DNA of 48,792 nt from [Clostridium] symbiosum (lineage in GTDB: Bacteria > Bacillota > Clostridia > Lachnospirales > Lachnospiraceae): NCBI GenBank assembly GCA_021769625.1, contig JAETSN010000030.1, positions 1-48,792 of the forward strand, read 5' to 3'. The notes beneath the pieces were generated by a model. That model searched no databases. It was given only the letters and a program-made list of their open reading frames with translations, and was not told the origin of the DNA. The translations under genes and the position numbers were made by a program. Below, piece by piece: positions 27,570 through 47,785 of this stretch; position 1 is the first letter of the stretch; each line of letters begins with the position of its first letter.

Positions 27570-28709
27570 ATGCGGTGTATTTTGCAGTTGAGCACAGGAA
27601 GCTTTAACCGCTCCGCATGCAGAGCGGAGGAAGCGGTAAAGACGCTGGAGTACTGCATGCAGGTTCTGGATGTGGAAAAAGTGATATTCGGCTGGGCTGC
27701 GGATATCGCATTAAATCAGGAGATCAGCCGTATGCTGGATCGATATCCGGTGGAAAAGTATCTGTGGCTTCCGGTGTTCGCTGAAATTCAGGACAGGGAA
27801 GGAGTTTGGCAGAACAAGAATATTTCGGATCAGAAAAGACAGGAGATCAACACCTGTAAAGAGGACGCATTTGACTTTGTCTGCCAGTCATCCCGGGAAA
27901 ATATGACATACGCGGTGGAAGTATTTGACAGGTTGACAGAGGGCTGTCGTATGGACGGCGTATTTCTGGACAGGATACGGTACGCTTCCGCGGCGGGAGG
28001 AAGCAGCGCGTTGTATGGATGCTGGTGTCCGCACTGTCAGGATATCTATGAGAAAAATGGAGTGGATACAGAACGGGTCAGGGCGATGGCAGAGGAAGAA
28101 AATATGGAACGGTTCATACCATCGGCGCTTGAACGGGGTATCTACCGCTATGGGGATCAGGATATTGACAGGCTTATGGCGGCAAAGCGGCAGATCATCA
28201 CTTCCCAGGTGGGGGCGCTCTGTGAGCGGTTTCACAGCCGGGGGCTGAAAGTCGGCGCGGATACCTTTGCACCTTCCATTGCGGATTTTGTCGGACAGGA
28301 TATCGACGCGCTGGCAGAAAAGGTGGATTTTATAAAACCGATGGCCTATATTCGGACCGATGCGCCGGCGGGCATTCCCTTTGAACTGCGCGCTCTCGGA
28401 AGCAGCATAAAGAAGCGGATCGATGAACTGTGGGAAGAGGATACGGGAAGCATGGAAACATTGGTCCGGCAGATGCAGGAGCTGAAAGGCAGAGGTTACG
28501 CAGTGGCGCCGGGAATCGACGCAAACCGGATCGAGGGCATCTGCGATGCGGATGCTGCTTATGTCAAAGAGTTTCTGCGGAAACTGGACTTAGCAGGTAT
28601 CGACAGGGCTGTCCTTTCGTGGAACATCATGCAGATATCAAAAGAAACGATCAGAGAACTGGCGGATGTTATGCCCGCTTCCTCAAAAGGAAACGGGATA
28701 GCAATATAA
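27570..28709 (+). CDS. unrecognised TIM-barrel-like protein, possible glycosidase
   Basis: The 379-residue product has a strand/helix rhythm that suggests a (beta/alpha)8 barrel. MDGVFLDRIRYAS at about 130-142 resembles the GHL10/DUF187-type and related glycosidase strand ending D.IRY, and GLKVGADTFAPS and VDFIKPMAYIRTD look like later barrel strands. A CxxC pair is present (CWCPHC). It has no signal peptide, so it acts inside the cell. It heads a sugar ABC operon and may process the imported sugar. The ATG at 27570 suits the AAAGGGGGG site better than 27564. The family assignment is tentative. Confidence 0.6.
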   Translation: MRCILQLSTGSFNRSACRAEEAVKTLEYCMQVLDVEKVIFGWAADIALNQEISRMLDRYPVEKYLWLPVFAEIQDREGVWQNKNISDQKRQEINTCKEDAFDFVCQSSRENMTYAVEVFDRLTEGCRMDGVFLDRIRYASAAGGSSALYGCWCPHCQDIYEKNGVDTERVRAMAEEENMERFIPSALERGIYRYGDQDIDRLMAAKRQIITSQVGALCERFHSRGLKVGADTFAPSIADFVGQDIDALAEKVDFIKPMAYIRTDAPAGIPFELRALGSSIKKRIDELWEEDTGSMETLVRQMQELKGRGYAVAPGIDANRIEGICDADAAYVKEFLRKLDLAGIDRAVLSWNIMQISKETIRELADVMPASSKGNGIAI

Positions 28710-28738
28710 AAGCAAAGAATTCTAAAGGAGGAAAAAAC

Positions 28739-29794
28739 ATGAAAAGGAAATTAATGGTAACTGTTTTGGCGGCATCGCTGGCATTTGGCCTTGCGGCATG
28801 CGGGAACGCTGCAGGCGGGGAAACGGCACCGGAAGAGGCGGCAGCAGAAGAGGCAGCTCCTGCCGAGGAAGAAGCTCCCGCAGAGGAAACGCCGGCTAAG
28901 GAAGAGGCGGAACCTGCGGCAGAGGAGGGAAAGACATTAAAAGTTGCATATATCCCGAATTCCATGTCAAACGAAATGAATGCATACGGCTATAAGATCA
29001 TGGAAGAACACCAGGGCGATTATAATATGGAAGTGACCGCTTTTGACGGACAGTATGATTCCCAGACGGAGACAGCGGCGATCACAAACTGTATCGGGCA
29101 GGGCTATGATGCGCTGATTCTGTGTCCCAGTGATATCAACGCCGTGATTCCTTCTGTGATGCAGGCAAAAGAGGCGGGGATCATCGTGGCGATGTACTCC
29201 GCAGATCTGCCGGAGGAATACCGTGAGTACCGTGATATCTTTGTTGGAGTGGACGACACAGAAGCGGGAAAAAATGCGGCGAAGGCATTTATCGATCAGT
29301 TCCCCGACGGCGCGAAGGTGATCGAGGTCGGCGGCACGGCGGGAACGGACGCGCAGATTCGCAGACATGACGGATTCAACGCAGGGCTGGAAGGCTCCAA
29401 TATCGAAGTGCTGGACTATCAGGCGACGGATAGCTGGTCTTCCAATGAGACGATGGCGATCACGGAGGATATGATCGTAAAATACGGCGACGAGATCCAG
29501 GGCATCTTCTGTCATTGGGACGGCGGCGCGACAGGATGTATCGAGGCGCTGAAGAACGCGGGGATCGAAGGCACTTACATTGTGGCGATCGACGGCAGCA
29601 GGAGCGGTTTTGACCAGGTGAAGGACGGCACACAGAATGTCTGCATCAGCCAGAACGTTGTAAATATTTCCCTGAAAGCGCTGGAAGTGATCCGCAATGC
29701 GGCGGACGGCAAGAATTTTGAGGCGGAAAACTATGTGCCCCTCGATATGGTGACTTTAGACAACGTGGAAGAATTGCCGTATCCGGAGTGGTAA
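28739..29794 (+). CDS. sugar ABC transporter substrate-binding lipoprotein (RbsB type)
   Basis: The 351-residue product has a lipoprotein signal with lipobox LAACG, cut before the Cys at about position 21. An Ala/Glu/Pro-rich spacer (about 26-60) follows, then a ribose-type periplasmic-binding fold beginning LKVAYIPNSMSNEMN, with the FVGVDDTEAGKNAA and VAIDGSRSGFDQV segments. It would capture the sugar at the outer membrane face and deliver it to the permeases. AAAGGAGG lies before the ATG at 28739; the longer in-frame extension to 28430 lies inside the previous gene and is not real. Confidence 0.93.
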   Translation: MKRKLMVTVLAASLAFGLAACGNAAGGETAPEEAAAEEAAPAEEEAPAEETPAKEEAEPAAEEGKTLKVAYIPNSMSNEMNAYGYKIMEEHQGDYNMEVTAFDGQYDSQTETAAITNCIGQGYDALILCPSDINAVIPSVMQAKEAGIIVAMYSADLPEEYREYRDIFVGVDDTEAGKNAAKAFIDQFPDGAKVIEVGGTAGTDAQIRRHDGFNAGLEGSNIEVLDYQATDSWSSNETMAITEDMIVKYGDEIQGIFCHWDGGATGCIEALKNAGIEGTYIVAIDGSRSGFDQVKDGTQNVCISQNVVNISLKALEVIRNAADGKNFEAENYVPLDMVTLDNVEELPYPEW

Positions 29795-29927
29795 AGTGTA
29801 AGAAGATGTTCTAAGACAGCAAAATACGCTGTCTAAGAACATCTAAATCTTACACAAAAGAACGCAAAAGCAGCGTTCTTTGCAGATCGTTTGTGCCGCT
29901 GGGAGCGGCATGGTAGTAAAGTGTAAG
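29791..29927 (+). ncRNA. structured intergenic element, family 2, copy 1
   Basis: The element starts at the stop of the binding-protein gene. Stem 1 pairs 29796-29820 with 29828-29855, with an A-A mismatch and an AAA bulge. Stem 2 pairs AAGAACGC (29858-29865) with GCGTTCTT (29873-29880). Stem 3 pairs TGCCGCT (29894-29900) with AGCGGCA (29904-29910). A 12-base direct repeat, GTAAAGTGTAAG, marks both ends (29791-29802 and 29916-29927). A further hairpin lies at 29936-29965. The same structure recurs at 46216-46355 with compensatory changes. The strand is inferred from the adjacent gene. The site within an operon suggests a role in transcript processing or partial termination. Confidence 0.7.
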
Positions 29928-30038: not shown

Positions 30039-31520
30039 ATGGATAAACAGCTTTCCGATGTGATCCTGTCCGTGGAGCATGTCAGCAAGGCCTTTCCGGG
30101 CGTGAAAGCGCTGGATGATGTATCGCTGCAGGTGGGGCGCGGCGTTGTGCATGGCATCGTAGGGGAAAACGGGGCGGGCAAGTCCACGCTCATGAAGATA
30201 CTGTCCGGCGTTTATACAAAGGACGCCGGCACGGTTGTATTTGACGGGCAGAAGATAGAGAAGACGACGCCGATGGAATCGCTGCGCAGGGGACTCAGCA
30301 TCATCTATCAGGAATTCAGCCTGATCTCCTCCATGACGGTAGGGGAAAATATCTTTCTGGGAAGGTTCAGGGAAGCCGGCGGTATGCGGGGAACTCACCA
30401 GAAGGCGAAGGAACTGCTGGAACAGATCGGTTCTTCCATCCATACCCACAGCTATGTGTCGGAATTGAGCACTTCGGAAAAACAGATGGTGGAGATCGCG
30501 AAAGCGCTCTCCTTCCGGTCGAAGCTCATCATCATGGATGAGCCTTCCAGCAGCCTGACCGAAGAAGAACTTGCGAAACTGGGGGATATCATCCGCCAGA
30601 TGAAGAGCGAAGGGATATCCATCCTGTATATCAGCCATAAGCTGGACGAGATCTTTGAGTACTGTGATTTTGTGACAGTCATGCGGGACGGACATGTGAT
30701 CGATACCCGTCCTGTCTCCGAGTTAGGACGCAGGGAAATGGTGGGCATGATGGTAGGCAGGACGATAGAGAACGAATACCCGGAACGTCCTCATTTTGTC
30801 GGAGAGCCGTTGATGAAGGTGGAGCATCTGACCACCAATAAGCTGAAAGATATTTCGTTTACCTTGAATCGCGGAGAAATCCTCGGGTTTGTGGGCCTGG
30901 TGGGGGCAGGCAGGACGGAGATCGTCCGTGCGATCTACGGTGCAGACAAGGTGAAACGGAAAGAAATACGGATCGAAGGGGAGGCGGTAAAGATAATAAG
31001 CCCCCAGGACGGGAAAAAGCATGGGATGGCATTTGTGCCGGAGGACCGCAAACAACAGGGGCTGGTGCTGCCGTTTTCCGTGGAGTCCAACATTTCCATG
31101 GCGAATCTGAAAAAGCTGAAAAAGGGCATGTTCCTCTCGGGGGAGAGAGAGCGGAAGATGGCAAAGGACAAGATAAACGAACTGCTCATTAAGACGCCGT
31201 CCCCCACTTCCGTTATCGAAAATCTCTCGGGCGGCAATCAGCAGAAATGCATTATCGGAAGATGGCTGGAGACGGAACCGAAGATCCTGATCATGGACGA
31301 ACCCACAAGGGGGATCGATGTGGGCGCGAAATATGAGATCTATATGCTGATGAAAAAGGCGGTGGAGGCGGGAAGCTCCATTATCCTGATCTCCTCGGAA
31401 CTGCCGGAAGTGCTGCATATGAGCAACCGTGTGCTGACCATAGCGGACGGGCGCATCACGGGGGAATTTGATCCGGAGAAAGTGTCCGCGCAGGAGATCA
31501 TGAACAGGGCGATAGGATAG
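30039..31520 (+). CDS. sugar ABC transporter ATP-binding protein (RbsA/MglA type)
   Basis: The 493-residue product has two ABC cassettes in tandem, as usual for ribose/galactose-type importers. Cassette one has Walker A GENGAGKS and Walker B LIIMDEPSSSL, with a signature that is weak (VSELSTSEKQ). Cassette two has a degenerate Walker A (GLVGAGRTE), the signature ENLSGGNQQK and Walker B ILIMDEPTRGID. This asymmetry is normal in the family. It energises the two permeases that follow. Confidence 0.95.
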   Translation: MDKQLSDVILSVEHVSKAFPGVKALDDVSLQVGRGVVHGIVGENGAGKSTLMKILSGVYTKDAGTVVFDGQKIEKTTPMESLRRGLSIIYQEFSLISSMTVGENIFLGRFREAGGMRGTHQKAKELLEQIGSSIHTHSYVSELSTSEKQMVEIAKALSFRSKLIIMDEPSSSLTEEELAKLGDIIRQMKSEGISILYISHKLDEIFEYCDFVTVMRDGHVIDTRPVSELGRREMVGMMVGRTIENEYPERPHFVGEPLMKVEHLTTNKLKDISFTLNRGEILGFVGLVGAGRTEIVRAIYGADKVKRKEIRIEGEAVKIISPQDGKKHGMAFVPEDRKQQGLVLPFSVESNISMANLKKLKKGMFLSGERERKMAKDKINELLIKTPSPTSVIENLSGGNQQKCIIGRWLETEPKILIMDEPTRGIDVGAKYEIYMLMKKAVEAGSSIILISSELPEVLHMSNRVLTIADGRITGEFDPEKVSAQEIMNRAIG

Positions 31521-35142: not shown

Positions 35143-36600
<1,458 letters not shown>

Positions 36601-36604
36601 GGGA

Positions 36605-36796
36605 AATTACGCCTGATGGCGTAATTTCCCGCTACTTCTCGACGAGCAGAGCGAGTTGAGAAGTTTCCCGTGAGGATAATTACGCCTGATGGCGTAATTT
36701 CCCGCTGCTTCTCGACGAGCAGAGCGAGTTGAGAAGTTTCCCGTGAGGATAATTACGCCTGATGGCGTAATTTCCCGCTGCTTCTCGACGAGCAGA
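36605..36796 (+). repeat. 73-bp tandem repeat, about 2.6 copies
   Basis: Units start at 36605, 36678 and 36751 (period 73); the third ends at 36796. Units one and two differ at a single base (CTACTT against CTGCTT). Each full unit holds two hairpins: AATTACGCC with GGCGTAATT (four-base loop), and CTTCTCGAC with GTTGAGAAG. In the first unit the stem extends to 13 pairs (36601-36613 with 36618-36630) and begins right after the guaB stop. No T-run follows any of the hairpins. Confidence 0.9.
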
Positions 36797-36813
36797 AAGA
36801 ATGAGGAGAGAAT

Positions 36814-37542
36814 ATGGAAATAAGATCATTGCAGGATGAATTGAAGGGTAATCCGTATCCGGGGCGTGGTATCGTGATAGGAAGGACAGCTGACGGAAAA
36901 TATGCGGTGGCTGCTTATTTTATTATGGGCAGGAGTGTGAACAGCCGCAACAGGGTCTTTGTGGAGGATGGCGAAGGCATTCGCACGGAGGCGTTTGACC
37001 CTTCCAAACTGAGCGATCCCAGCCTTATCATTTACGCGCCGGTGCGTGTATTAAAGAATCGGACGATCGTGACAAACGGCGATCAGACGGATACGGTCTA
37101 TGAGGGTCTGGCGGGTGGAAAGAGCTTTGAGGAGGCGCTTGCGGAAAGGGAGTTTGAGCCGGACGCGCCGAACTATACGCCGAGAATATCAGGTGTTATG
37201 GAAATAGAAGGGGGTGCGTTCTCCTATGAGATGTCTATCTTAAAGAGCGCGGACGGCGACCCTTCCTGCTGTAACAGATATACTTTTTCCTATGACAATC
37301 CGCCGGCGGGGGAGGGTCGTTTTATCCATACCTATCAGAACGATGGGGATCCTCTGCCCAGTTTTGAGGGTGAACCCGAGCGTATTCTGATCGGGAATGA
37401 GGATATTGACAGTTTTGCAGAACATATATGGGAGAGTCTGGACGAGGAGAATAAAGTATCTTTGTTTGTGCGGTATATCGAGGTTGAAACCGGGAAATAT
37501 GAGAGCAGGATCCTGAACAAAAACATAAAGCAAGGGAACTGA
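36814..37542 (+). CDS. IMP cyclohydrolase, PurO-like
   Basis: It closes FAICAR to IMP, the last step of purine synthesis. The 242-residue product resembles the archaeal-type PurO family, not the N-terminal domain of PurH. The N-terminus has GNPYPGRGIVIGRTADGKYAV and YFIMGRSVNSRNR. The mid-part has PNYTPRISGVM. Its gene is followed within 50 bases by a separate AICAR transformylase gene, which supplies its substrate. A GAGGAGA ribosome site precedes the ATG. It lies between the tandem repeat and the transformylase. Confidence 0.88.
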   Translation: MEIRSLQDELKGNPYPGRGIVIGRTADGKYAVAAYFIMGRSVNSRNRVFVEDGEGIRTEAFDPSKLSDPSLIIYAPVRVLKNRTIVTNGDQTDTVYEGLAGGKSFEEALAEREFEPDAPNYTPRISGVMEIEGGAFSYEMSILKSADGDPSCCNRYTFSYDNPPAGEGRFIHTYQNDGDPLPSFEGEPERILIGNEDIDSFAEHIWESLDEENKVSLFVRYIEVETGKYESRILNKNIKQGN

Positions 37543-44486: not shown

Positions 44487-44527
44487 AAAGGCAGTTCAGG
44501 AAACGAAGCCATGAAAGGAGTATGGAT

Positions 44528-46207
44528 ATGGCAAGAACCGTAGGAATCGGGATACAGAGCTTTGAAGATATTAGGAAAAATGATTGCTTCTATGTGGATA
44601 AGACAATGTTTATTAAGGAGTGGTGGGAAAATAGGGACAGCGTAACTTTGATCACCCGTCCCCGCCGTTTCGGAAAAACATTGGCAATGAGTATGCTGGA
44701 ACAGTTTTTTTCGGTGAAATATGCAGGCAGGAGAGAGCTGTTTGAGGGGCTTGCCATCTGGGAGGAGAAGGAGTACCGGGAGCTTCAGGGGACGTATCCG
44801 GTACTCTTTCTTAGCTTTGCAGGAGTGAAGGAAACTTCTTTTTTGCAGGCGAGGAAAAAGATTTGTCAATACATTAAGGAACAGTACAACAAGTGTGATT
44901 TTTTGCTGAAGGGAGATTGCCTGAATGACGGTGAAAAGGAACAATATGGAAAGGTTTCAGCAGAGATGGAAGACTATGCGGCTTCCGATTCGCTGAAAAA
45001 CCTTTCCGATTACCTGTGCCGTTATTACGGGAGGAAAGTCATCATTCTTCTGGACGAGTATGATACGCCCATGCAGGAGGCTTATGTAAACGGGTACTGG
45101 GAGGAGATGGTTGCTTTTATCAGGGGCTTGTTTAACGCTGCCTTTAAGACGAACCCCTATCTGGAACGTGCCGTTATGACGGGTATCACCAGGGTCAGCA
45201 AGGAATCTGTCTTCTCGGATCTCAATAACCTGGAGGTGGTGACAACCACCTCGGAGAAATATATGGATGCCTTTGGGTTTACGGAGGAGGAGGTCTTTCG
45301 GTCTTTGGAGGAGTATGGGCTTTCGGATCAAAGGGAGGCGGTACGAGATTGGTATGACGGGTTTATCTTCGGAAGCAAAAAGGATATTTACAACCCCTGG
45401 TCAATCTTAAATTATCTTGACAAGAGAAAGTTTTCCACCTACTGGGCCAACACCAGCAGCAACAGCCTGGCCGGGAAGCTGATCCGGGAGGGAAGCTCTG
45501 ACATCAAGATCATCATGGAGGATCTTCTGCAGGGGAAATCCTTTTCCGTAAAGCTTGACGAGCAGATCGTATTCAGCCAGCTTGGAAACAGTGAGAGCGC
45601 CATCTGGAGCCTTCTTTTGGCCAGCGGCTATCTGAAGGCGAAGAGCTACGTCATAAAGGGAGGAAAAACCATATGCCAGCTTGTGCTGACCAATATGGAG
45701 GTTCGCCTGATGTTTGAGGAAATGGTGGAGGGGTGGTTTGCAGACTTTACACCGGCGTATAATGGGTTTGTGAAAGCTCTGCTGAGGAATGATAAGAAGG
45801 AAATGAACATCTACATGAATAAGGTTGCCCTGGCCACATTCAGCTATTTTGACACGGGGGCAGGGTCATCGGAGCACAGCGAGCCGGAACGGTTCTACCA
45901 CGGGTTCGTTCTGGGGCTTCTGGTGGACCTTCGGGAGTGCTATACTCTGACATCCAATCGTGAGAGCGGCTACGGCCGGTACGATGTGATGCTGGAGCCG
46001 TTGAAGGGAGAAGGGGACGCCATCATTATGGAATTCAAGGTTCACGATCCGGGGGAGGAGAGTACGCTTAAGGATACGGTGGAGGCGGCCCTGGCCCAGA
46101 TCGAGGGAAGGGGTTATGGGGCTTACCTGGAAGCTAAGGGAATCTCTCCAGAGCGGATAAGGAAGTACGGCTTTGCCTTTGAGGGAAAGAAGGTCCTCAT
46201 CGGGTGA
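44528..46207 (+). CDS. AAA-ATPase-like/PD-(D/E)XK nuclease-like protein (DUF1703 type)
   Basis: The 559-residue product belongs to a family expanded in gut clostridia and Bacteroidetes. The N-terminus ([21 protein letters not shown]) and the P-loop-like [15 protein letters not shown] are characteristic, as is LLDEYDTPM at about 175. The C-terminal PD-(D/E)XK-type domain shows [11 protein letters not shown] and then [11 protein letters not shown] (about 480-505), where D and the ExK residues would form the metal site. The function is uncertain; defence or mobile-element roles are proposed for relatives. The ATG at 44528 fits the AAAGGAG site better than 44522. Confidence 0.88.
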
Positions 46208-46215
46208 AGAGACGG

Positions 46216-46355
46216 GGGAAGTGTGAAAAGATTTTCTAAGCGGTCAGAGGACACCCGCTAAGAAAATCTAAGTTTCACACTGAAGAATGCCAGGGACAGG
46301 CATTCTTCTCGCAGATTGTTTATGCCGCTGATGGCGGCATGTCGGGAAGTGTGAG
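46216..46355 (+). ncRNA. structured intergenic element, family 2, copy 2
   Basis: It starts ten bases after the AAA/nuclease stop. Stem 1 pairs 46221-46243 with 46255-46280, with the A-A mismatch and a three-base bulge (AAG) at the same places as copy 1. Stem 2 pairs AAGAATGCC (46283-46291) with GGCATTCTT (46299-46307). Stem 3 pairs ATGCCGC (46322-46328) with GCGGCAT (46334-46340). The linker GCAGATTGTTT is conserved. The direct repeat GGGAAGTGTGA marks both ends (46216-46226 and 46344-46354). The strand is inferred from the gene in front. The convergent sensor-kinase gene ends at 46403. Confidence 0.7.
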
Positions 46356-46402: not shown

Positions 46403-47785
46403 TCATACAGCGGCATGCTTTAAGCTGATGATGGTGTGGAAGGCTGCCACATCATCTTTGTAGTACATCTTTATATCCCCGTTGTATTTGCCGACCGCCT
46501 TCCGTATGCTTTTTATGCCGAATCCATGCTTCTTTTTATCGGGTTTGGAAGTGAAGGGCATACGGCGTTGGAAGGACGGTTGTTCAGAAAACGGGTTGCT
46601 GCGGCAGGAGTTGATCATGGTTATGACGACAAAGGGGGTATTTTCTTTTTTCTGAACAGTCATTTCTATAGATGCCCCGGGGATGCCCGTGCAGGCTTCC
46701 ACGGCATTATCGAGCAGATTGCAGAACAGAGAGGTGACATCATTGTCAGCCATAAAATTTACGGTGCCGCTCCGGATATCAGTGAGAAACGATATCTGCA
46801 GCGAGAGGCACTGTTTTTTATAGCGGCAGAGGATCGCGTTTAATAGCGCATGGTCGCATACTCTTGTGCTCTCTTTCAGGTCGGAGGAAAGCAGAAGCTG
46901 TTTTATATAAGCGGAAATCTTTTCATGATCACGCTGATCGTTTAACAGGGCGATGGACTGCAGGTGTTTTTTGATGTCGTGGATCAGGATGCTCTGGTTA
47001 TCGTGCTGGGTGAGCAGCATTTCGTAGTATTTTGCGGTGTCCGATTCCTTTTGGAGAAGGAGGAGCGTTTCGGCGTATTCGGAGTGCTTTTTTTGGTTAT
47101 ACTGGTTCAAACCGAAGACAAGCAGGCTGATGCCAAGAAGGAGTATGGCGCTTAGTGTGATCATCCAGTCTGATGTCCGGGGAAGGGCAGTGTTTTCACC
47201 GATGTTGATAAAAGTAGTTATTATGAAAGTGGCAGTGATCGGGATAATGCTGAGCAAAAAAACCGAGATATTTTGAGATGAATTATGAGAGTTTCTTCCC
47301 TTTAAAAGATGGATAAGGATATATATGATTAAATAAAATGAAATTTTACTGAAAGCCGACAAAATAGCAAGATTTCGGAAATAGGAAGTCTCGGCAAAAA
47401 AATGCGGAGAATATCGCAAAAGAATACCAAATGGGATCAGTTCACATGCGCCCATAATAGCGGTCAGTATGGAGGAATGGAATAGGGCTGAGAGCCATTT
47501 TAACTGATATTGGGAATATAAATATATAAAATTCGCTAAAAAATATAGTAAACTATTCAACCATGTTATTTCCGCTATCGATACTGCAAATAAGAACAGA
47601 TATAGAAGGGCAAGTATCAATACGCGTTTTTTTGCCGGTGCTTTTTGGAAACTTGCAGATTGAAAAGAAGTAGGTACAGATTCGTTATCTGCGGCAAGAA
47701 AAAGACTGGAAGAATACTGCCAGAGAATAACAGCTTCTGTAAATAATCCAAGAGAATAACAAATTGCATTATTCATTATAATCAC
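46403..47785 (-). CDS. AgrC-like GHKL sensor histidine kinase
   Basis: The 460-residue product has about six hydrophobic segments in its first 228 residues (roughly 54-72, 76-92, 98-123, 138-160, 173-195, 207-227). The kinase core follows: H269 in ILIHDIKKHL, N360 in LFCNLLDNAVEAC and the G-box GFGIKSIRKAV at about 421-431. This is the plan of peptide-sensing AgrC/ComD kinases. It overlaps the response-regulator gene by four bases. No AgrB or AgrD gene is seen inside the window; the signal source could lie beyond 48792 or elsewhere. Confidence 0.93.
   Translation of the reverse strand: MIIMNNAICYSLGLFTEAVILWQYSSSLFLAADNESVPTSFQSASFQKAPAKKRVLILALLYLFLFAVSIAEITWLNSLLYFLANFIYLYSQYQLKWLSALFHSSILTAIMGACELIPFGILLRYSPHFFAETSYFRNLAILSAFSKISFYLIIYILIHLLKGRNSHNSSQNISVFLLSIIPITATFIITTFINIGENTALPRTSDWMITLSAILLLGISLLVFGLNQYNQKKHSEYAETLLLLQKESDTAKYYEMLLTQHDNQSILIHDIKKHLQSIALLNDQRDHEKISAYIKQLLLSSDLKESTRVCDHALLNAILCRYKKQCLSLQISFLTDIRSGTVNFMADNDVTSLFCNLLDNAVEACTGIPGASIEMTVQKKENTPFVVITMINSCRSNPFSEQPSFQRRMPFTSKPDKKKHGFGIKSIRKAVGKYNGDIKMYYKDDVAAFHTIISLKHAAV

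Follow-up and report, generated by a model that had tools for sequence, protein, structure and literature searches.

A family of small, structured and probably mobile non-coding elements lying in sense at gene ends in Lachnospiraceae

What is the three-hairpin structure that occurs twice in the window (the whole 48,792-nucleotide stretch of [Clostridium] symbiosum DNA analysed here), and is it a fixed class of RNA or something that moves? The original prediction placed copies of such an element at 29791-29927 and 46216-46355, and both are there; the strings quoted for them read back from the window, and each has the stem 1 with its A-A mismatch and three-base bulge, the stem 2 and the stem 3 that were claimed. 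Absent from that description was the exact 11-base direct repeat that bounds each window copy.

Copy 1 (29792-29927, plus strand) consists of three hairpins between the left repeat TAAAGTGTAAG (29792-29802) and an identical right repeat TAAAGTGTAAG (29917-29927). The TAA stop (29792-29794) of the upstream gene, which encodes a periplasmic sugar-binding protein (28430-29794, plus strand, 28430 being the first possible start and the true start not fixed; Pfam match on 28631-29791), sits within the left repeat. Stem 1 (29796-29855), placed by folding, covariation and reading back the sequence, has an outer helix GTGTAAGA/TCTTACAC (29796-29803/29848-29855) and an inner helix (29804-29820/29828-29844) broken by the A.A mismatch (29813/29835), with the bulge AAA at 29845-29847 and the loop AAAATAC at 29821-29827; within it AGATGTTCT pairs with AGAACATCT. 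Stem 2, AAAGAACGC/GCGTTCTTT (29857-29881), the linker GCAGATCGTTTG (29882-29893) and stem 3, TGCCGCT/AGCGGCA (29894-29910), follow on the same strand, with no T-run after stem 3, and the next gene, also on the plus strand, encodes an ABC transporter ATPase by Pfam (30039-31520).

Copy 2 (46216-46354, plus strand) is built in the same way between left and right repeats GGGAAGTGTGA (46216-46226 and, identical to it, 46344-46354), the left one separated by 8 bases from the TGA stop (46205-46207) of a plus-strand gene with AAA-ATPase_like and PDDEXK_9 domains in Pfam (44522-46207). Its stem 1 (46221-46280), placed on the same three grounds, has the outer helix GTGTGAAA/TTTCACAC (46221-46228/46273-46280), the inner helix (46229-46243/46255-46269), the A.A mismatch (46238/46260) and the bulge AAG (46270-46272), followed by stem 2, GAAGAATGCC/GGCATTCTTC (46282-46308), and stem 3, TGCCGCT/GGCGGCA (46323-46339); the gene after this copy is on the opposite strand. 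Both copies fold far better than their dinucleotide shuffles (z of -7.6 for copy 1 and -7.9 for copy 2, with 0 of 200 shuffles folding as well). We rejected the identity of the element as an intrinsic terminator, since a consensus scan of the two window copies for a GC hairpin with a T-run found none in the region of copy 1, and the sole terminator near copy 2 (46430-46456) lies outside it.

The linker pattern led to more places in the genome that carries the window, and the model search that the original prediction called for turned up many further copies, both in this genome and in genomes of the family. A covariance model made from 12 copies (R1) gave 49 rows in the own genome at E <= 1; an alignment gap had misplaced its stem 2, and it was used for locating copies only. 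With a second model (R2), of stem 1 alone and built from 30 own-genome copies, 44 rows came in at E <= 0.01; 35 of them, all at E <= 2.9e-8, are distinct matches, eight are reverse-strand echoes and the last is a further weak place. Four of the 35 lie at contig ends, as two left parts and two right parts with about 105 identical overlapping bases, and may be the halves of as few as two copies, so that the genome holds 33-35 stem-1 copies, besides places reduced to stem 3 or bearing inner deletions. Thus the claim that the element is present twice is true of the window alone and not of the genome, and the linker GCAGATYGTTT stands as the variant of the window while ACGGATTGTTTGTGCCGC is commoner genome-wide. 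The contig-end pieces are near-identical (L051 on C9, L052 on C123, L039 on C31 and L038 on C125), which indicates that the repeat breaks the assembly, and further copies may have been collapsed in it. Near-identical copies also stand at unrelated places, for example L034 and L035.

Beyond this genome, R2 matched in 5 of 9 genomes of the genus and in 28 of 348 drawn from the family of the window, the own genome included in both counts, and in none of 397 other genomes drawn from the phylum (the own genome alone matched among the 398), the family-wide and phylum-wide searches having used stricter filters under which weak matches are lost. In a scan of records with the core pattern, covering 80 of 115 stretches, most named records are Lachnospiraceae (e.g., Parablautia muri D42-62 and Lachnospiraceae bacterium COE1, both with copies), which we therefore take as the host family; a few bear other genus names among the matches listed. 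The core pattern is also present in one IMG/VR viral contig; plasmid records queried with copy 1 and phage records queried with copy 2 gave no match. The element is shorter than 200 bp, non-coding and present in many copies.

That the element belongs to no known RNA class was borne out by Rfam, which had no match in the window and, over ten element loci searched at E up to 1, no model above its gathering cut-off on the element itself. Two miRNA-precursor models touched its antisense strand at 27.2 and 25.3 bits, where the cut-offs are 66 and 69, and a sub-threshold match to a plastid intron (L122, 4672-4756) falls outside it. At the dapA-dapB locus, which carries a copy, a lysine riboswitch was found above its cut-off, away from the element (L034, 182-355). 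Our literature searches turned up no such element for Lachnospiraceae; the candidate lists of a survey reporting, in the part of it available, thousands of structured RNAs in human microbiomes (PMC8040213) could hold it.

The covariation that had been seen between the two window copies is upheld across the family. In the 30 own-genome copies, 92.3% of the cells pair, double-sided changes occur in 21 of the 24 pairs, and the covariation score is 0.464 as against 0.175 +/- 0.013 after shuffling. A set of 81 distinct sequences, drawn almost entirely from relatives, has 94.9% of its cells paired and double changes in 23 of the 24 pairs, and it scores 0.571 against 0.181, this alignment having been fitted to the model and hence leaning towards it; in both alignments, versions of the structure slid along the sequence pair in at most 47% of the cells. 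Copies in which pairing was lost were to have counted against the element, and the outcome is in its favor. In the outer helix 97.8% of the cells are paired, with double changes in all 8 pairs across genomes. The unpaired positions are conserved as well, the two mismatched bases being A in 98% and 95% of the 81 sequences, in which the loop AAARNAC and the bulge AAR are also kept. Covariation taken by itself does not prove selection on structure, as had been proposed, since template switching is an alternative source of it; the conserved A.A mismatch and bulge, read from the alignments, do argue for a constraint on the shape of stem 1.

Full elements have stems 1, 2 and 3 in a body of about 110-125 bases, and around this plan there is a good deal of variation: stems 1 and 3 only (L048-L050), stems 1 and 2 only (some elements, e.g., in genome G203), a doubled stem 1 (L057), tandem elements with one common repeat (L033), the stem-3 end only (L069 and L070) and deletions of hairpin interiors (L063, L065 and L071). 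Stem 1 appears to be the conserved core module, while stem 2, stem 3 and a hairpin in the bulge would come and go. This last hairpin, a small extra one seen by eye in the place of the three-base bulge, occurs in L293, L309, L351, L353, L304, L325, L340 and L356, and both flanking helices are kept where it does. Stem 1 is also found inside a different repeated composite (L058, L059, L061, L062 and L064). This second dispersed repeat, of about 190 bases and with stem 1 nested, by eye, in another hairpin, has those five members in the own genome and two in the genus (L078 and L083); a sequence in the ispG-polC gap of genome G008 (L156) resembles it by eye without the stem 1. A structured element of no known class is well founded on the covariation and the Rfam result, but a fixed RNA class with a few members is not, the element being mobile and modular instead.

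Mobility is argued by the comparison of eight own-genome sites (ispG, dapA, rng, udk, sbp, htrA, rsmE and mrp) with their counterparts in relatives. The ispG site is empty in G001 and G007, reading TGGGAAGGGTGAAAC; the occupied site shows TGGGAAGTGTGA at its left end and CTGGAAGTTTGAAAC at its right end. At dapA all 8 genus relatives are empty, G005 reading AAAAGCGTAAGCTTACAAC, and the filled site has AAAAGCGTGA on the left and GGGAAGCGTGAGTTTACAAC on the right, the GCG variant of the target occurring in each of the two repeats. For rng, with TGGAAAATGTGAG as the left and GGGAAATGTGAGGGAAAC as the right sequence, G005 has a decayed copy and the five other compared relatives are empty; at sbp, where window copy 1 lies, the decayed copy is again in G005, with G008 and G004 empty; and at htrA (TGAAGTGTGA left, GGTAGTGTGA right) six relatives are empty. 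Direct repeats of the kind left by target site duplication are thus present at ispG, dapA, rng, sbp and htrA. At udk eight relatives are empty, and the native ends of G002 and G004, CAAAGTGTGAG, equal the left arm of the copy; on its right the copy in G000 continues into a second element. The rsmE site is empty in relatives and the two ends of its copy disagree; the mrp copy, without stem 3, showed no repeat, and the elements with stems 1 and 2 only (e.g., in G203) have no clear right repeat.

Direct repeats of some 7-11 bases bound most copies, whose targets are purine-rich sites such as AAGTGTGA at gene ends. The left and right repeats agree within copies at 110 of 144 positions against 102.1 +/- 2.9 between copies (285 of 20000 shuffles reach this; 18 own-genome copies, hand-aligned), a modest correlation. 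The empty relatives show that the element is an insertion at a native stop codon, and together with the agreement of the repeats within copies they imply that the left repeat is host sequence. This left repeat makes up most of the outer helix's 5' arm and, at udk and dapA, still encodes the last native residues of the protein. In the outer helix of stem 1, the end of the gene itself is predicted to pair with an internal strand of the element, and the assignment of stem 1 to the element needs correcting to that extent: the 5' arm of its outer helix belongs to the end of the target gene and not to the element body. We found no terminal inverted repeats: comparison of the first 25 body bases with the last 25, reverse-complemented, did not set any of the 8 copies examined apart from its shuffles (89 to 471 of 500 reach the score). 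In G346 and G271 (L126, L128, L129 and L134) the target motif is repeated just before the element, and it looks as if these copies had inserted beside an older end.

The copies are also strongly oriented. In a first set of 108 places, which rests on heuristic gene calls and includes reduced and composite copies, the arrangement is '++' at 72, '-+' at 13, '+-' at 10 and '--' at 5, with one side unknown at 8. A second set, taken from a different collection at 81 loci (the 80 of 115 stretches and the IMG/VR viral contig), comprises 83 of 90 matches, the seven dropped being mostly partial or cut off, and gave '++' 51, '+-' 8, '-+' 8 and '--' 2, with at least one side unknown at 14; its species may overlap those of the first set, and a few of its rows repeat one site across related genomes. 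Between two genes of the same direction, the pooled counts are 123 in sense ('++') and 7 in antisense ('--'), for a nominal p of 1.6e-28, the true value being larger because some rows are the same site in related genomes. Where the upstream gene is in sense, a stop codon falls at -12 to +15 of the model start at 57 of 85 and 35 of 62 places in the two sets; these distances are heuristic, as an insertion inside a gene would also make an early stop in the element, and our sole reason for believing them is that native gene ends are seen at the sites for which relatives were compared. Copies stand behind stop codons in operons which, from their protein sequences, we take to be ispG-polC, dapA-dapB, rpsH-rplF and rpsK. 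One copy lies between tRNA genes, identified by eye, and not behind a protein gene (L109, 139-205).

The ends of rpsH, metG and rpsK, named by eye or from the query, bear the element in more than one genome. For rpsH (by eye: L084, L098, L307, L311, L351 and L358) and for metG (L145, L247, L256 and L257) the stem sequences are quite different from one genome to the next, and this recurrence would point to hot spots or to fast turnover of an old insertion. Part of the placement and of the sense bias would come from a purine-rich target that often contains the stop, together with the loss of insertions elsewhere, and the placement behind stop codons with its sense bias is not proof of an RNA function.

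The interpretation that we consider probable is that Lachnospiraceae harbor a new family of small mobile elements, non-coding and non-autonomous, which insert at gene ends and lie there almost always in sense. The comparison of sequences establishes the family, its structure and covariation, the insertion with its repeats, and the placement and sense bias. The element would insert at purine-rich gene ends, mostly with direct repeats of about 7-11 bases, and run almost always in sense from the upstream stop codon to before the next gene, the left repeat, contributed by the host, serving as the 5' arm of the outer helix and pairing with a strand inside the element. A helper encoded elsewhere could recognise stem 1 in its folded state, either on single-stranded DNA or on RNA. 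Copies would survive where they lie in sense just behind a stop, and, since they would be co-transcribed there, their hairpins might incidentally protect the message of the upstream gene or contribute to its processing.

It can also be supposed that the host keeps the element for its own benefit, as a cis-acting RNA for intercistronic processing or stability that is bound by a dedicated protein or RNase and selected at gene ends. The very strong covariation with the conserved unpaired A.A, loop AAARNAC and bulge AAR would fit such an RNA, as would the sense orientation, the recurrent sites at rpsH, metG and rpsK in different genomes and the change from bulge to small hairpin in some copies, which is how RNAs evolve; yet its sporadic presence (28 of 348 genomes), the flanking direct repeats, neighbor genes that are mostly unrelated, the near-identical recent copies and the decay of the copies at two orthologous sites (L196 and L221) make this explanation unlikely in our judgment. 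That single copies are kept for a host function is not supported by the comparisons here. Nevertheless, the sense bias seems to exceed what a mere parasite would require and could reflect a function at the RNA level, and the elements at the rpsH, metG and rpsK ends in several genomes could reflect retention instead of repeated insertion. The covariation itself could have a mainly mutational origin, if template switching during replication copied one hairpin arm onto the other after insertion. Switching that makes hairpin arms alike has been described (parts of PMC8794818 and PMC8604942), hairpin interiors are deleted in L063, L065 and L071, and it is the left arm and not the right repeat that matches the inner strand, a', at 114 of 120 positions against 97.2 +/- 3.2 in shuffles (reached by 0 of 20000). 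Homogenisation without constraint would have erased the A.A (98% and 95% A) and the AAR bulge, which persist in 81 sequences, and at ispG a' fits the native target better by eye than it fits the present left arm; we thus give this origin some weight while regarding it as somewhat unlikely.

The match of the left arm to a' also bears on a bolder proposal, that the insertion is self-guided, with a' pairing to the target in the manner of EBS-IBS or IGS guides and picking complementary gene ends. The outer helix (97.8% paired, double changes in 8 of 8 pairs across genomes) is consistent with it, and so are, by eye, the uninserted udk ends, which match the element strand at 8 of 8 bases in G004 and 7 of 8 in G002, and the ispG ends of G001 and G007, which match it at 7 of 7. 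That 7-base fit to the native target at ispG also speaks against pure copying, as does L044, which has the target AATGTGAG on both sides while its a' is TTTCACAC, unlike that target, so that a' is not simply a copy of it. However, the right repeat, which lies outside the hairpin, does not track a' within copies, either over all the positions compared (75 of 120 against 73.6 +/- 2.3, reached by 6999 of 20000 shuffles) or over its first six bases (64 of 90 against 61.7 +/- 1.4, reached by 2314 of 20000), in the 15 own-genome copies on which all the a' counts were made after three with another a' type had been left out. The dapA and rng targets match a' only partly, and there is neither a catalytic RNA core nor a known helper. 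The a' counts are explained better by maintenance of the hairpin once it has been inserted, whether through selection or through template switching, than by a choice of target through a', and the negative result for the right repeat lowered our estimate of self-guided insertion, which we now think distinctly improbable. In the same improbable case, a mobile element would find a gene end by pairing through its internal strand and insert in sense, the host sequence becoming the closing helix of the core hairpin, and element and target would together form one structured intercistronic RNA, guided there by base pairing.

As for the helper that mobility would call for, nine element-rich genomes (at least 12 matches in the family search) were compared with nine others, one of which (G020) has 5 element matches itself. 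A REP-like element moved by a RAYT or Y1 (HUH) transposase, or a relic of IS200/IS605, would be in keeping with the ability of Y1 enzymes to recognise hairpins with mismatches or bulges (part of PMC8266576) and with Y1_Tnp matches in 5 of the 9 rich genomes, but 6 of the 9 others have one too and four of the rich genomes, all drafts (G050, G095, G203 and G340), have none. The single Y1 gene of the own genome has ends unlike the element by eye, and in this comparison, made with that one gene only, the likeness to an IS end that would have told against the original prediction did not appear. Direct repeats flank the element, and to our knowledge IS200/IS605 elements make none; we regard a Y1-based origin as highly improbable. 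Retro-insertion after the manner of SINEs, with a reverse transcriptase supplied in trans, would account for repeats of variable length, the sense bias and the places with only the 3' hairpin (L069 and L070), and RVT_1 matches occur in 6 of the 9 rich genomes; against this, 8 of the 9 others match as well, and three of the rich ones (G050, G095 and G340) have no match, an absence that is not certain in drafts 93-96% complete, and we think it very unlikely. Neither a Y1 transposase nor a reverse transcriptase is universal in the element-rich genomes, and both were rejected as the helper. Among the ORFs around 113 places, compared all against all, we found no autonomous copy or helper, and in the 25 largest groups the one recurrent neighbor was an ABC-type group at 11 loci, the others reaching at most 4. 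On contig C134 about 3 kb separate a stem-1 copy from a stem-3 remnant of the same strand; this pair was considered as an autonomous copy and rejected, since no transposase is enclosed and the gene in between is presumably of the HSP90 type.

The element has likenesses to several known repeats. The BOX elements of S. pneumoniae (boxA-boxB-boxC), judged parasitic and likely to affect co-transcribed genes, are also short, intergenic, modular, folded and in many copies, but they have terminal inverted repeats and a proposed IS partner (part of PMC3049150). Our element has no terminal inverted repeats, sits in sense at stop codons and takes part of its first stem from the host. YPAL or RU-2 of Yersinia, 168 bp long with no TA at its termini and with target duplications of 3-26 bp, shares the empty and filled sites, the varying duplications and a possible effect on the upstream message; it differs in its host and in its internal inverted repeats, and three hairpins with a conserved mismatch, bulge and loop are unreported in the available part of its description, which sets it apart as described (part of PMC2229807). 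ERIC, IRU or RU-1 (RU-1 being 127 bp) are likewise short intergenic mobile repeats with an orientation-dependent action in mRNA (part of PMC2229807), whereas they have terminal inverted repeats with TA ends and belong to another phylum. In REP and BIME sequences, too, an enzyme, TnpA-REP (RAYT), recognises palindromes that fold with a mismatch or bulge (part of PMC8266576), but four of nine rich genomes lack a Y1 match, direct repeats flank our element, and the GTAG expected before the hairpin was not seen, the bases 5' of stem 1 being a varied A-rich target. We do not file the element with BOX, ERIC or YPAL, as it lacks terminal inverted repeats, has a distinct structure and was confined in our samples to a single host family; by analogy, it may work as they do. 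In group I and group II introns, host sequence 5' of the insertion pairs with an internal strand, as here; the element is far too short for their catalytic core. It is moreover flanked by target repeats, and no intron model in Rfam, whether for domain V or for P3-P9, matched over it.

If our preferred reading of a mobile, non-autonomous family is right, the repertoire of Lachnospiraceae, which are common gut bacteria, gains a group of mobile repeats with an RNA structure. The first helix being common to the end of the host gene and to the element, it would offer a clean natural case in which the causes of covariation, namely selection on RNA shape, mutation by template switching and guided insertion, can be separated, and copies placed after the stop codons of genes in central operons may well influence expression in strains that can be cultured. 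Elsewhere in the window, at 36600-36818, a 73-base repeat with two palindromes occurs three times in tandem directly before the gene that starts at 36814.
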